The notes under the pieces are model-generated. The model was given only the letters and a program-made list of their open reading frames with translations, searched no databases and was not told the DNA's origin. Of a DNA stretch of 64,000 bases, positions 11,722 through 63,334 are shown piece after piece. The position numbers and the translations under genes were made by a program. This stretch comes from Merismopedia glauca CCAP 1448/3 (GTDB taxonomy: Bacteria; Cyanobacteriota; Cyanobacteriia; Cyanobacteriales; CCAP-1448): contig NZ_PVWJ01000002.1 in NCBI RefSeq assembly GCF_003003775.1, positions 1 to 64,000 of the forward strand, given 5' to 3'. Position 1 is the first letter of the stretch; every line of letters begins with the position of its first letter.

Positions 11722-11826
11722 CCTGAAGATATTTCCTCAATTTTCTCTCCATTTTTCTAAGTATTGGCATAGAGAACCCATTTGAGATCTTCTCTAAAAC
11801 CCTTAGTGAGAAAACATTTCCAGCTA

Positions 11827-11927
11827 ATACCATTTTCTTAAATACCTGCTACAGATCCAAACGTAGAGACGTTGCACTGCAACGTCTCTACACCCCAATG
11901 TGTAGCCCAAGAAAATGAAAATGGTAT
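11827..11927. mobile_element. 101-bp palindrome-cored element with inverted ends (MITE-like), copy A
   Basis: Starts ATACCATTTTCTT and ends in its near complement AAAATGGTAT. The centre is a perfect 29-base palindrome, GTAGAGACGTTGCA at 11863 and its complement up to 11891. Copy B at 47838-47938 is exactly the same length and, read in the opposite orientation, shares ATACCA, TAAATA and TGCTACA at the same offsets. No coding capacity, so non-autonomous if mobile. Confidence 0.7.
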
Positions 11928-12537
11928 AAATTTATTTTTAGGCTGAAACTAGCTTCTAGTCAAAGTTCTGGCATAGTTCTATCGAATAAATTTCTGATAT
12001 AACTGAGAATTTGGCATTTTGAAGACAGATGTAGTGATAGCTATGTCCTAAGCTATTGAGATCTATACAAATGAAATTGATGAGTAGCTTTGCATTTAAT
12101 TTAATAGTGGTTTGATAGTTCAGAAAACTCTCCTTGAGAAATAAGGGGAATTAAAGGAAATTTGATATAATTGGTGAACGGAAATTAAAGCAAAAGTTTT
12201 AGCCATTAACCTGACTATTTTAAGTGCTTTTATCCTAGAAAAATATACTTTTAAAAGACAATCTAATCAACCGCAGATTAGTCATTTCAATTAGGCAAAA
12301 ACTGAGATTATATAAGTATATTGCCGGAGATTTAAACGGAATTATAGAGTTTATTTATCAGGGAATTTTAACATTAAAAATTGATGTTAATTGGGGGGTC
12401 GATAATCGTATTATATTTACGTTAGAGTAATTAAATTAATGTTATTTGACACAAGAATACTGAAATTCTTAAACAAGATTAGATTTACTTATCTATACTC
12501 AGTCAAAATTGTGACAAATTAGTTAAAATAAGAACAT
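11928..12537. other. AT-rich intergenic region before the DHH gene
   Basis: About 610 AT-rich bases with no gene, no recognised RNA and no clear repeat. It presumably contains the promoter of the DHH phosphoesterase gene, but I could not single one out. Confidence 0.5.
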
Positions 12538-15932: not shown

Positions 15933-15965
15933 TTGTAGAGACGTAGCAGTGCTACGTCTCTACAA
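15933..15965. repeat. 33-base palindrome
   Basis: TTGTAGAGACGTAGCA, one centre base, then the exact complement. It belongs to the GTAGAGACG / GTAGGGGCG palindrome family scattered in this window (11863, 23527, 47872, 53562). It lies between the lyase and the DUF362 gene. Confidence 0.9.
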
Positions 15966-18588: not shown

Positions 18589-18640
18589 ATACCAAATCAC
18601 CAAATTACTGCTACAGATATTTAGCAGTTCAGCTACAACC
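18589..18640 (+). mobile_element. Half-copy of the 101-bp inverted-end element
   Basis: ATACCAAATCAC then AAATTACTGCTACAGAT match the left 30 bases of the elements at 11827 and (inverted) 47938, then the homology stops and a different hairpin array begins. A preceding palindromic motif (GCAATG ... CATTGC, 18550-18578) flanks it. Confidence 0.6.
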
Positions 18641-18642
18641 GC

Positions 18643-18754
18643 CAGGGGTTCAAACCCCTGTCTCATAGCGAAAGTCCTCTAAAGAGGACTGGGGAGGTAG
18701 TTTCAGTCCACTTGAGTGGACTTTAGCTATTAGCCCAGAACTTGAGTTCTGGGC
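18643..18754. repeat. Array of four consecutive hairpins
   Basis: Four perfect or near-perfect short palindromes in a row: CAGGGGTTCAAACCCCTG (18643-18660), AGTCCTCTAAAGAGGACT (18673-18690), AGTCCACTTGAGTGGACT (18705-18722) and a 22-base GCCCAGAAC...GTTCTGGGC (18733-18754). The spacers are 12, 14 and 10 bases. The structure lies between dacB and the porin and is not explained by a terminator. Confidence 0.9.
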
Positions 18755-19071
18755 GGGTGCTACGTCTCTACGCATGGCTTTTGACTTCGTTTAATCTACT
18801 CTTAATTTTTTGGCGATCAAACTCTTAACTCATTAATTCGTGTTTCGACATAATATATTAACTAAATCTATTGTGAGGACTCAAGTCTCAGAATTTGTAT
18901 CCTTTGTACTTACATTCTCTCTGAAGTGTAAGTATGCTGTAGTGGCAAAATTCTACTACATCTGGATAGATTTACGATAGATTATATTCATCTTTTGTGA
19001 GATGATTTGTAATTAAGCTACAAAGCGATTACTGGGATAAATTCTCAGTTAGGTGTGAGTGAGGAATAATT
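18755..19071 (+). promoter_or_regulatory. Porin leader and promoter region
   Basis: About 320 AT-rich bases before the porin start. A direct repeat of TGTAAGTATG/TGTAAGTA-like sequence (GTACTTACATTC, GTGTAAGTATG) is present near 18905-18935, and GTGAGGAATAATT gives a good ribosome site. Porin leaders in cyanobacteria are often long and regulated; no specific operator is recognised. Confidence 0.4.
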
Positions 19072-23505: not shown

Positions 23506-23526
23506 AAGTCAGAAGTCAGAAGTTAG

Positions 23527-23546
23527 GGGCGCAACGCGTTGCGCCC
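23527..23546. repeat. 20-base perfect palindrome of the GGGGCGCAA family
   Basis: GGGCGCAACG followed by its exact complement, flanked by direct repeats of AGAAGTCAGAAGT on both sides (about 23510-23522 and 23552-23562). The direct repeats on both flanks look like an insertion within a short tandem repeat. Confidence 0.85.
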
Positions 23547-23642
23547 GTACAGAAGTCAGAAGTAAAATATATCAAATCAATAGTTTCAGCTTCCAACTAG
23601 GTTTTAACCTTTTATTTTCGGTCAGATTGAGATGGAACACCT

Positions 23643-45918: not shown

Positions 45919-45985
45919 GGAAGAGGTATTAGGTTAAACAGACTCCCCGTGCAGTAGGGTGGGCATTCCCCACCCGAAACAAGCT

Positions 45986-46672: not shown

Positions 46673-47809
46673 ATGAGTGTCTGCGAATACAAACCAGGTC
46701 TAGAAAACATTCCGGCTGCACAATCAAGTATCAGCTATGTTGATGGACAACAAGGCTTACTTGAATATCGTGGTATCAGTATTCAAGAACTAGCCGAAAA
46801 GAGTACCTTTTTAGAAACCTCTTATCTCCTAATTTGGGGACACTTACCTAGTCGGGAAGAGCTTAACAAATTTGAAGCGGAGATTTATTCCCATCGCCGG
46901 ATCAAGTATCGCATCCAAGACATGATGAAATGTTTCCCCGAAACAGGTCATCCGATGGATGCGTTGCAAGCTTCCGCAGCCGCACTGGGTTTATTTTATT
47001 CTCGGCGCGCCTTAGATAACCCAGAATACATTTTTCAAGCTGTAGTGCGCTTATTAGCCAAAATACCCACGATGGTGGCAGCTTTTCAACTGATGCGGAA
47101 AGGTAACGAACCTGTTAGACCAAGGGACGATCTAGATTACGCAGCTAACTTTTTGTATATGTTGAGCGAAAAGGAACCAGATCCTTTAGCTGCCAGAATT
47201 TTTGACCAGTGCCTGATTCTTCACGCCGAGCATACGATGAATGCTTCAACTTTTTCGGCTAGGGTAACAGCTTCCACTTTAACCGATCCCTATGCAGTAA
47301 TAGCATCGGCTGTAGGGACTCTCGCTGGTCCTTTACACGGGGGAGCTAATGAAGATGTGATTGAAACCTTACAAGAAATTGGCTCGGTAGGAAACGTCCG
47401 TTCTTGGTTAGAAGATGCTTTAGCTAATAAACGGAAAATCCCTGGATTTGGACATCGGGTTTATAAAGTTAAAGATCCTCGCGCCTCAATTTTGCAAAAG
47501 CAAGCTAAAGCCTTATTTGAAAAGTTTGGCAGCGATAAACATTACGAGATCGCTCTAGAACTTGAAAAAGCTGTAGAAGACAGATTATCTGAGAAAGGAA
47601 TTTACCCAAATGTGGACTTTTATTCTGGCTTTGTTTACAGCAAATTAGGTATTCCCCAAGACTTATTTACCCCGATATTTGCTATAGCTCGCGTCGCTGG
47701 TTGGTTGGCTCACTGGAAAGAGCAATTGGGAGAAAATAAAATTTATCGTCCTACCCAAATATACGATGGGGAACACACTCGTGGTTATACTCCGATTGAG
47801 GAACGCTGA
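46673..47809 (+). CDS. gltA: Citrate synthase
   Basis: A 378-residue type I/short citrate synthase making citrate from oxaloacetate and acetyl-CoA. Active-site pieces: LHAEHTMNASTFSAR, GPLHGGANEDV (catalytic His), GFGHRVYKVKDPRA and NVDFYSGFVY (catalytic Asp). LLEYRGISIQELAE opens the family domain. A 2-methylcitrate synthase role is possible but less likely in a cyanobacterium. Convergent with the DGQHR gene. Confidence 0.95.
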   Translation: MSVCEYKPGLENIPAAQSSISYVDGQQGLLEYRGISIQELAEKSTFLETSYLLIWGHLPSREELNKFEAEIYSHRRIKYRIQDMMKCFPETGHPMDALQASAAALGLFYSRRALDNPEYIFQAVVRLLAKIPTMVAAFQLMRKGNEPVRPRDDLDYAANFLYMLSEKEPDPLAARIFDQCLILHAEHTMNASTFSARVTASTLTDPYAVIASAVGTLAGPLHGGANEDVIETLQEIGSVGNVRSWLEDALANKRKIPGFGHRVYKVKDPRASILQKQAKALFEKFGSDKHYEIALELEKAVEDRLSEKGIYPNVDFYSGFVYSKLGIPQDLFTPIFAIARVAGWLAHWKEQLGENKIYRPTQIYDGEHTRGYTPIEER

Positions 47810-47837
47810 AGTTAGAAACTAGTCAGGAGATCTATTC

Positions 47838-47938
47838 ATACCAATTCACTTTGAAAATGCGACAAATCTTGGTAGGGGCGCAATGCATTGCGCCCCTACA
47901 GATAATTTATATGTAGCAATTATTTAGTGATTTGGTAT
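47838..47938. mobile_element. 101-bp palindrome-cored element with inverted ends (MITE-like), copy B
   Basis: Ends ATACCAATTCACT and AGTGATTTGGTAT are inverted repeats with one mismatch. The core is a perfect 28-base palindrome (47872-47899, GTAGGGGCGCAATG and its complement). Identical in length to copy A at 11827. Its right end overlaps the stop codon of the DGQHR gene. Confidence 0.75.
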
Positions 47939-49221
47939 CAGATTTTGCTCCAACCTAATTGTTTTAAACAGTTTTCTTTTGCAGCACTCACTGAACTACG
48001 ACTAGTATTAAGTTTGATACCTCCTTTCCCATCAGGAGAAATTAGTGTATCTTTCCAACATTCACCCTGTCTTGACCAATCAATTTCCTTCACTAATTGC
48101 ATAACTTTATTGCGGTCAAAAAAATTAGTTTCATGATCAAGAGTGCAGTAAAGTAAATCACCTAGAGTTTCTAAACCAACGCTAATTCCTAGAATACAAT
48201 TATCTCTGTATTCAGTGGCTTGTTTCCAATGTATTTTCTCTTTTTCACAGATATCGCCAGTCAATTTAGCCATTTTTCTCCAATTATTATCTTTGTCAAG
48301 ATCGTTAACTGTATCAGAATACTTAACAAAGAAATAATTAAGACAGTCACTCAATTCCTTCGCTCTTTCCTGTACTAGATTGTCTGTGTTTGCTTCAGAA
48401 AGCTTGTTAGCTGGATTACCTGCAAAACTACAACTGACTAATTTAGCAATATAGTTGATTGTGTAAATGTAACCCGTTTTAGATCCAGGACTGGATTTAA
48501 TTTTTTGAGTTTTGTTACGAAACATATTAACTTGTTCAACAACTTCCTTTGCTATAGCGTCCTTTCCATATCCTCCATAAGCGACTAGGAGAGACTGAGC
48601 AATTGGTAAAGTTTGAGCCATATCACGAAAATCGGTTTGACACTGCTCAAGTTCTCCTTCTAGTACCAAATTTACTGGAAATGTCACCTGACTAATCAAA
48701 TCCCGATCTTCTCCTTCAAACTCTATAAGTTCTTTAATTGCTTTTTTTCGATGTTGACCATCAGTAATTTCTAGGGAAGTGCTGTTATAGATAAAAACAA
48801 CATATAAATCCCCCCAAATCTTCTGATATTTGATTTTAGAAGGATCTACATTAGCCGTAATAGTCCCCAAAATCCATTTATTTCCTGCTTGAGCACGTTC
48901 TCTAATGTAGTTTTTGATTTTTTCAACGTGTCTATTATCTATTGGACGATTTTTGCCAGAATTTGGATTATTACTCTCTTCAGCCACACTTCTTGCTCTT
49001 AGAAGAGTTGGTATTTCATTTGCGTGAACATTAATTTGAAGCATTCGGCGATTACCATGCTTCGATCCAATTGCTAAAAAAGTCTGTCCTTCTCTGTATC
49101 CCTCTACCATGATGGGTTGAATACTATTCTTAATGGCTTGGGTAAGCTCAGGAGTAACTAAAGAACTATTACCCTCTAAATTGTCAGGATTTTGACTCAG
49201 AGTGTCTATTTCAGTAACCAT
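47938..49221 (-). CDS. DGQHR-domain protein (DndB-like)
   Basis: A 427-residue protein with EITDGQHRKKAI at 151-162, the signature of DndB and related DGQHR proteins (ParB/sulfiredoxin-like fold). Preceding motifs: RPIDNRHVEKIKNYIRER and KWILGTITANVD. The C-terminal 250 residues are helical. DndB regulates phosphorothioate DNA modification operons, but no dndACDE genes are nearby, so this is an orphan. The TGA stop (47938-47940) is made by the end of a MITE-like element, so the C-terminus may be truncated. Divergent from a small gene with a shared 150-base AT-rich region. Confidence 0.75.
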   Translation of the reverse strand: MVTEIDTLSQNPDNLEGNSSLVTPELTQAIKNSIQPIMVEGYREGQTFLAIGSKHGNRRMLQINVHANEIPTLLRARSVAEESNNPNSGKNRPIDNRHVEKIKNYIRERAQAGNKWILGTITANVDPSKIKYQKIWGDLYVVFIYNSTSLEITDGQHRKKAIKELIEFEGEDRDLISQVTFPVNLVLEGELEQCQTDFRDMAQTLPIAQSLLVAYGGYGKDAIAKEVVEQVNMFRNKTQKIKSSPGSKTGYIYTINYIAKLVSCSFAGNPANKLSEANTDNLVQERAKELSDCLNYFFVKYSDTVNDLDKDNNWRKMAKLTGDICEKEKIHWKQATEYRDNCILGISVGLETLGDLLYCTLDHETNFFDRNKVMQLVKEIDWSRQGECWKDTLISPDGKGGIKLNTSRSSVSAAKENCLKQLGWSKI

Positions 49222-53191: not shown

Positions 53192-53216
53192 ATTTTACTA
53201 ATGTTTTGCGATCACG

Positions 53217-53239
53217 TAGGGTAGGCATTGCCTACCCTA
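53217..53239. repeat. 23-base palindrome after ndhE
   Basis: TAGGGTAGGCA, one base, TGCCTACCCTA. Could act as a hairpin at the 3' end of the ndh mRNA; no T run. Resembles the GTAGGGTGGGCATTCCCCACCC motif at 45955. Confidence 0.8.
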
Positions 53240-53275
53240 AATTTCTATCGGTGTGGAATAATCGATCCGATATTG

Positions 53276-53561: not shown

Positions 53562-53589
53562 GTAGGGGCGCAATGCATTGCGCCCCTAC
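53562..53589. repeat. 28-base perfect palindrome
   Basis: GTAGGGGCGCAATG plus its complement, identical base for base to the core of the element at 47872-47899. Only the core is shared; the terminal inverted repeats are absent here. Confidence 0.95.
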
Positions 53590-63019: not shown

Positions 63020-63123
63020 TTTAGTAGTCCTCAAATCTGACTAATTTTAAGATCGGCATTAGAAACCAGTTATAGCGTCCATACTGTAACTTTGTCACTT
63101 TGAATCTGCGTTAACAGTATCAG

Positions 63124-63210
63124 GACTTACGCACAACTAACGAAAAACCAACCATTTCAACCCCCGAAGATCCTCCTAAATCCCCCTTAAAAAGGGGACT
63201 TGCGTAAGTC
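63124..63210. mobile_element. 87-bp element with 10-base perfect terminal inverted repeats
   Basis: GACTTACGCA (63124-63133) and TGCGTAAGTC (63201-63210) enclose CCTCCTAAATCCCCCTTAA and AAAAAGGGGAC, itself a hairpin. It carries no gene. This sequence type is frequent in cyanobacterial genomes; non-autonomous element is an inference. Confidence 0.7.
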
Positions 63211-63334
63211 ATGAGTATACTTCTCTGCTCTGACCAATTTTAAAGATCGTAACCAGTAATTCTTTATTTGAGATGCGATAGACCAATTCTAAATGAGCCA
63301 CGGAATTAATTAGATCGCATCCCCCAGAGCATGG
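63209..63334 (-). pseudogene. Remnant of a RelE/ParE-like toxin gene
   Basis: An open frame ending at TGA (63209-63211) reads AHLELVYRISNKELLVTIFK then IGQSREVYS. This matches the C-terminal pattern of RelE/ParE-family toxins (Y-R-V-Y-R-I-x-x-x-x-L-x-V-x-V-x-x-I-G-x-R-x-x-V-Y). There is no start codon and the N-terminal two thirds are missing, so it is a decayed copy. The stop codon falls at the edge of the 87-bp element. Confidence 0.45.

Follow-up and report, generated by a model that had tools for sequence, protein, structure and literature searches.

Two related MITE families of the cyanobacterium Merismopedia glauca CCAP 1448/3 with evidence for exchange of their palindromic cores

Two short elements in the first 64,000 nucleotides of a contig of Merismopedia glauca CCAP 1448/3 (the window; contig C2 of a 5.2-Mb genome in 254 contigs) raise the question of how units of the same length and with the same inverted ends come to hold different, perfectly palindromic centres. 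As the original prediction stated, 101-bp intervals with ATACCA...TGGTAT ends are present at 11827–11927 (A) and 47838–47938 (B), with perfect palindromes of 29 nt in A and 28 nt in B at their cores. Shuffling predicts 0.05 occurrences of the gapped end pattern in the 64-kb window, which contains two. Both intervals include part of a 3-bp target duplication at their ends, and the elements proper are thus 99 bp each, at 11828–11926 (A) and 47839–47937 (B):

11825–11827, no strand: left target duplication TAA of copy A, equal to the TAA at 11927–11929
11828–11926, plus strand: copy A, family A MITE of 99 bp with ends TACCA...TGGTA, from BLAST and end pairing
11848–11853, plus strand: inner motif GCTACA of copy A, complementary to TGTAGC at 11901–11906
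11863–11891, no strand: P2-type hairpin at the core of A, GTAGAGACGTTGCA-C-TGCAACGTCTCTAC, a perfect palindrome of 29 nt
11927–11929, no strand: right target duplication TAA of copy A
47836–47838, no strand: left target duplication TCA of copy B
47839–47937, plus strand: copy B, family B MITE of 99 bp
47872–47899, no strand: P3-type hairpin at the core of B, GTAGGGGCGCAATGCATTGCGCCCCTAC, a perfect palindrome of 28 nt
47938–47940, no strand: right target duplication TCA of copy B

Both copies are intergenic. Copy B is flanked by a citrate-synthase-like ORF (46673–47809, plus strand) and a convergent ORF (47938–49221, minus strand); its right TCA is the TGA stop codon of the latter on the minus strand, so that the stop was kept despite the insertion. 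Single-strand folding predicts that the whole element forms one stem with the core at its tip.

Genome-wide BLAST (40 candidate places scored per query) yielded at least 77 matches to A and at least 79 to B, reverse-strand core-only matches included. Copy A has five other genomic copies at 91–97% full-length identity. Copies are dispersed in unrelated flanks; A and B represent two MITE families that are related, each with dozens of copies, and not the single family first proposed. Their ends are related, and A/B mosaics occur at L045 and L022. Like other MITEs, the elements have terminal inverted repeats, short length, no coding capacity, a target-site duplication and dispersed copies. A length of 98–101 bp is seen in 36 of 55 end-paired places, which include some neighbouring or one-sided pairings; the usual element has 99–100 bp, and other forms have 60 bp (coreless), 109 bp or 143–145 bp, the last with a second hairpin within the core. 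The predicted constant length therefore holds as a mode and not as exactly 101 bp. Likewise, of two inner motifs thought to keep fixed offsets, TGCTACA is common to most end types and TAAATA is confined to some. A half-copy reported at 18589 is real and consists of a single B-type end; a second remnant lies further along the window:

18590–18615, plus strand: solo B-type end (TACCAAATCACCAAATTACTGCTACA), one-ended remnant with 5 mismatches in 28, preceded by TGA
53562–53589, no strand: P3 hairpin in a B remnant lacking both ends, in which the inner flanks TATTAACCCTCT and CCAACATTTGTAGCATTT persist

Window positions 18620–18760 hold a cluster of short inverted repeats (AAGTCCTCT..AGAGGACTT, GTCCACTTGAGTGGAC and CCCAGAACTTGAGTTCTGGG) that recurs in the genome, and a relative of this cluster is split by a B MITE at L207:8367.

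The flanks of the elements carry a signature of transposition. The trinucleotide TNA stands on both sides in 37 of the end-paired places and is identical in 29 of these 37, compared with a chance of 0.32 from base composition (binomial p = 1.2e-8). Cases of TCA/TCA and TGA/TGA exclude a duplication of TA, the canonical IS630 pattern. Because the closest relative available has only about 76% DNA identity, empty sites were sought among paralogous repeats rather than across species. A 143-bp B-family copy (L097:8966–9108) is inserted within another repeat that is uninterrupted in three paralogous copies: the empty site reads TTTTTCG-TTA-GTTGTG and the filled site TTA-element-TTA. An uninterrupted copy lies in the window:

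63119–63213, minus strand: empty site, an uninterrupted copy of the repeat that the B-family element at L097:8966–9108 interrupts

An A copy inserted into a GGACTTACGCA-type element, beside the P4 hairpin of that element, is also consistent with TTA. Dispersal in unrelated flanks, matched TNA duplications and the empty site together bear out the proposal of a mobilised unit.

The cores have a distribution of their own. Perfect palindromes with arms of at least 12 nt, searched for in 850 kb, contain GTAG in 39 of 46 cases and are mostly 25, 28 or 29 nt long. They comprise four types of GTAG...CTAC hairpin, P1 and P2 (29 nt), P3 (28 nt) and P4 (25 nt). In 2.0 Mb of the host genome, allowing up to 4 mismatches, P1 is present in 56 hairpins and a carrier end adjoins none of them. 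P3 occurs 46 times, with both carrier ends in 9, one in 10 and none in 27, a few of which are MITE remnants. P2 occurs 23 times (both ends 10, one 7, none 6, these six being mostly MITE remnants), and none of 28 P4/P4b hairpins has A/B-type ends. Many P1 and P3 hairpins are located in arrays of the heptad TCAGAAG, and several P4 hairpins lie inside an element with GGACTTACGCA ends. Overall, GTAG...CTAC hairpins stand by themselves, form part of heptad arrays or lie inside terminal-repeat carriers, of which at least three are unrelated. The perfect palindrome is no inherent part of the carrier. The implied derivation of the A and B palindromes from one another is likewise unsupported: they belong to different hairpin types, both of which also occur outside these elements. 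Two hairpins illustrate this dispersal within the window:

15935–15963, no strand: standalone P1 hairpin GTAGAGACGTAGCA-G-TGCTACGTCTCTAC
23523–23550, no strand: hairpin of P3 type within an array of the heptad TCAGAAG, not part of a MITE

P4-type hairpins are also present in the window outside the reported elements, at 53216–53240 (1 mismatch) and 45954–45978 (3 mismatches). At the P3 hairpins in heptad arrays (L071:12119, L079:4798, L086:15359, L096:15087 and window 23523), TTCT or AGAA recurs on either side; a 4-bp duplication or the register of the array could account for this.

Comparison between genera and between copies indicates that cores are exchanged. The same carrier in Kastovskya, Symplocastrum, UBA11153 and UBA8803 is 92–102 bp long and contains a CCCCCTTAATAAGGGGG-type core, with matched TNA in most cases; in a Prochloraceae MAG, its cores are polypyrimidine. 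Conversely, P3-type hairpins reside in TATAGC-type carriers of genomes G044 and G148, and one lies beside a GGACTTACGCA end in genome G133. One A copy holds a P1 core (L016), and the A/B mosaics likewise combine parts of the two families. Cores are also lost: coreless copies have a common CTACA junction in both A end types. One repeat is present both with and without a P1 hairpin, and this pair looks like a 5-nt replacement, not a clean insertion. The notion of a mobilised unit with an exchangeable core is thus largely right.

Nesting is seen as well. An insert of 44–45 bp lies within the P3 hairpin of B copies at L064, L067, L178, L183, L217 and L278, the last of these showing that a P3 hairpin with a second hairpin of this length also exists in Cyanosarcina. 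The outer stem GGTYGC/GCRACC of the insert is conserved; the inner stem-loops vary in sequence with complementarity kept.

Compensatory change, the other route by which the palindromes were thought to be maintained, is real and yet limited, in that each hairpin type shows it chiefly at one or two base pairs. At P3 pair 13/16, TA is found in 15 copies, CG in 14 and AT in 9, the other 17 of 55 being unpaired or mixed. Paired variation also affects P1 pair 4/26 and P4 pair 8/18, and most other hairpin pairs are nearly invariant. Pairing in P3 exceeds that in all 1000 shuffles and in the other types lies about 2 to 3 sd above the shuffle mean, with kinship of the copies uncontrolled.

What might disperse the hairpins? 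Of 120 genomes of the order, 105 contain RAYT genes. GTAG repeats occur at distances of up to 620 bp from 18 of the 30 top RAYT genes compared with 2 of 29 control loci (p = 1.3e-5), an imperfect control in that all these loci surround one conserved gene; in the host genome, 40 of 300 random windows contain GTAG repeats. The RAYT-linked repeats mostly consist of GTAG and a stem without the closing CTAC, and mostly do not have P1–P3 sequence. A P4-type repeat adjoins one RAYT gene, a P3-like palindrome is found only at about 570 bp, and neither P1 nor P2 was seen beside the examined RAYT genes of the order. From these sequence relationships, it is plausible that the core hairpins are REP-like, and RAYT proteins may move them. 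The Y1/RAYT genes of the host genome were rejected as direct partners, as no GTAG hairpins adjoin them; other inverted repeats adjoin both of its RAYT-like genes. The first (L134, G000:C20:4216–4608; NF047646, 81.9 bits, cut-off 80) is adjoined by a 33-nt near-perfect palindrome, AGATGCCTGACTTCTTCAAGAAGTCAGGCATCT, similar to a 41-nt palindrome at L100:7654–7694. The second (L135, G000:C68:20016–20408; 72.8 bits, below the cut-off) is bracketed by inverted repeats of 58 bp that start with GGGCGGGTTT and resembles a TIR-flanked RAYT.

The most serious alternative is that the palindromes have no transposase of their own and arise and multiply by template switching during replication and by recombination, with the MITE merely tolerant of them. 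The hairpin that replaces 5 nt, with no insertion and duplication, would fit such an origin, as would coreless copies produced by slippage between CTACA repeats and the often perfect arms that correction by template switching would give. A dedicated mobiliser is favoured by the small number of fixed sequences, their high copy number and fixed length of 25–29 nt, and by the enrichment of GTAG repeats near RAYT genes. We therefore regard template switching as a rather unlikely, albeit credible, source of the hairpins.

A hairpin intrinsic to the MITE, serving transposition or RNA stability and leaving standalone hairpins behind as MITEs decay, would account for those end-less hairpins that are clear remnants (window 53562 and several P2) and would suit the predicted folding of the whole element as one stem. 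It is improbable and largely contradicted already: all 56 P1 hairpins lack an adjoining carrier end, P3 is present in heptad arrays and unrelated carriers, the same carrier has other cores in other genera, and 60-bp copies have no core at all. Moreover, the element at L190:12182–12281 has the same length and matching TTA duplications around a non-palindromic core.

The original prediction also called for target duplications, described above, and for a transposase with the same ends; such partners exist in other cyanobacteria, where they belong to the IS630 family. In the host genome, an end scan of 2.0 of the 5.2 Mb together with the transposase loci found no complete transposon or cognate transposase with these ends, a scan for autonomous copies (TACC ends, equal TNA) gave chance-level pairs only, and the best protein match spans 54 aa at 46% identity. 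By contrast, an end-pattern scan of named genomes identified in Microcoleus vaginatus HSN003 a complete IS of 1156 bp (L310:471–1626) flanked by TAA/TAA. The first 14 bases of its two ends are identical, the ends are closely similar to those of A and B, and its two ORFs, which a frameshift may have to join, are assigned to the IS630 family by NF033545 (117.5 bits, DDE part) and PF13358. A protein search across the order brought the number of such elements, the Microcoleus one included, to 23, with lengths of 1102–1172 bp and TACC-type ends. TNA is identical on both sides in 17 of the 23; as the selection pattern demanded TNA on both sides, this count is informative solely as to the match of the middle base. 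Autonomous partners with the same ends are hence found in Microcoleus and other genera. The MITEs share their ends with IS630-family transposons; the duplication is TNA, including TCA and TGA, and not TA, and we accordingly treat these IS630-type elements as a variant group, not as canonical representatives of the family. A transposase adjoining a B copy on contig C61 was dismissed as partner: it belongs to an IS982-like element (family assigned by eye; L220, G000:C61:8676–9237, ends ACCTGAGTTCGGG) that splits the MITE.

TNA duplications are typical of the IS5/IS1031 and PIF-Harbinger groups, and an IS5/IS1031 affiliation was considered on these grounds. It was dropped once the complete element proved to carry an IS630 transposase; because elements with matching ends encode IS630-family transposases, and IS5-type genes of the host are few and none has matching ends, derivation from either group is very improbable. 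Equally improbable are regulatory RNAs or terminators retained for function at gene ends, for which the strong predicted RNA fold and the intergenic position of both window copies would speak, against the lack of an Rfam match to the element, the differing cores and the signatures of transposition (TNA duplications and empty site).

Taken together, these data make it highly likely that A and B are non-autonomous MITEs, with ends matching those of cyanobacterial IS630-family IS, whose centre is an independently dispersed passenger hairpin that is gained, lost and swapped. A transposase supplied in trans, and perhaps lost since, would have inserted the element at TNA after recognition of its TACCA...TGCTACA ends; the duplication of three bases is observed, and as no cognate gene was found in the host genome, we can only infer the action of the transposase. 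The centre of the carrier, at the tip of its own stem, would tolerate foreign sequence, and the separately dispersed GTAG...CTAC hairpin may ride there as a passenger. Gain, loss and swapping of cores are evident from comparison and would most likely proceed by REP/RAYT-type insertion, by recombination between arms held in common and by deletion through slippage between CTACA repeats. Because a few pairs vary in a paired way, arm symmetry is probably maintained by replacement or arm-to-arm correction. A broader reading, for which we hold the balance of doubt slightly the heavier, is that this IS630-family group has shifted from TA to TNA and that its MITEs became vehicles for independently mobile GTAG hairpins by stem-tip insertion, swap, loss and nesting, combining two unrelated mobile systems.

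The elements thus offer a view, at the level of sequence, of two small mobile DNA kinds combining, a transposon-type carrier and REP-like hairpins. The natural comparison set that they provide (same carrier with other cores, same core in other carriers) lends itself to testing the means by which palindromic repeats spread, a question still unanswered for REP elements. To our knowledge, the IS630 elements studied so far duplicate TA only; TNA duplication by an IS630-type group challenges a rule thought valid for the whole Tc1/mariner group and is testable in vitro.

Several known systems resemble parts of this arrangement. The small dispersed repeats of Nostoc that Elhai described in 2008 are reportedly very small mobile cyanobacterial repeats, and the P1–P4 hairpins are possibly identical to them. 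GTAG-tagged REP repeats and REPINs are short palindromes of high copy number with cyanobacterial members (Di Nocera 2013, PMC3733652; Bertels and Rainey 2011, PMC3116915), and the reports on GTAG REPs include GTAG-15 dimers inside longer palindromes in Anabaena variabilis (PMC3733652, PMC3116915). The core hairpins are likewise short, GTAG-tagged and present in many copies, and P4 agrees in sequence with repeats located near a RAYT gene. Unlike those repeats, P1–P3 are perfect palindromes with a paired tag (GTAG...CTAC), are sited inside an IS630-type carrier and were found to have no adjacent cognate RAYT in the host genome. Nezha and the MITEs of Anabaena sp. 90 (PMC3542288) are also short, gene-less inverted-repeat elements dispersed in a cyanobacterium; in the part of their description available to us, nested independent cores and core exchange do not feature. 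The autonomous partners resemble ISY100 and the IS630 family (Tc1/mariner superfamily) in their NF033545 and PF13358 DDE_3 transposase, length of about 1.1 kb and inverted ends. ISY100 of Synechocystis, an IS630-family element, inserts almost only at TA and duplicates TA (PMC2170065), whereas the cyanobacterial group with A/B-type ends duplicates three bases, TNA.
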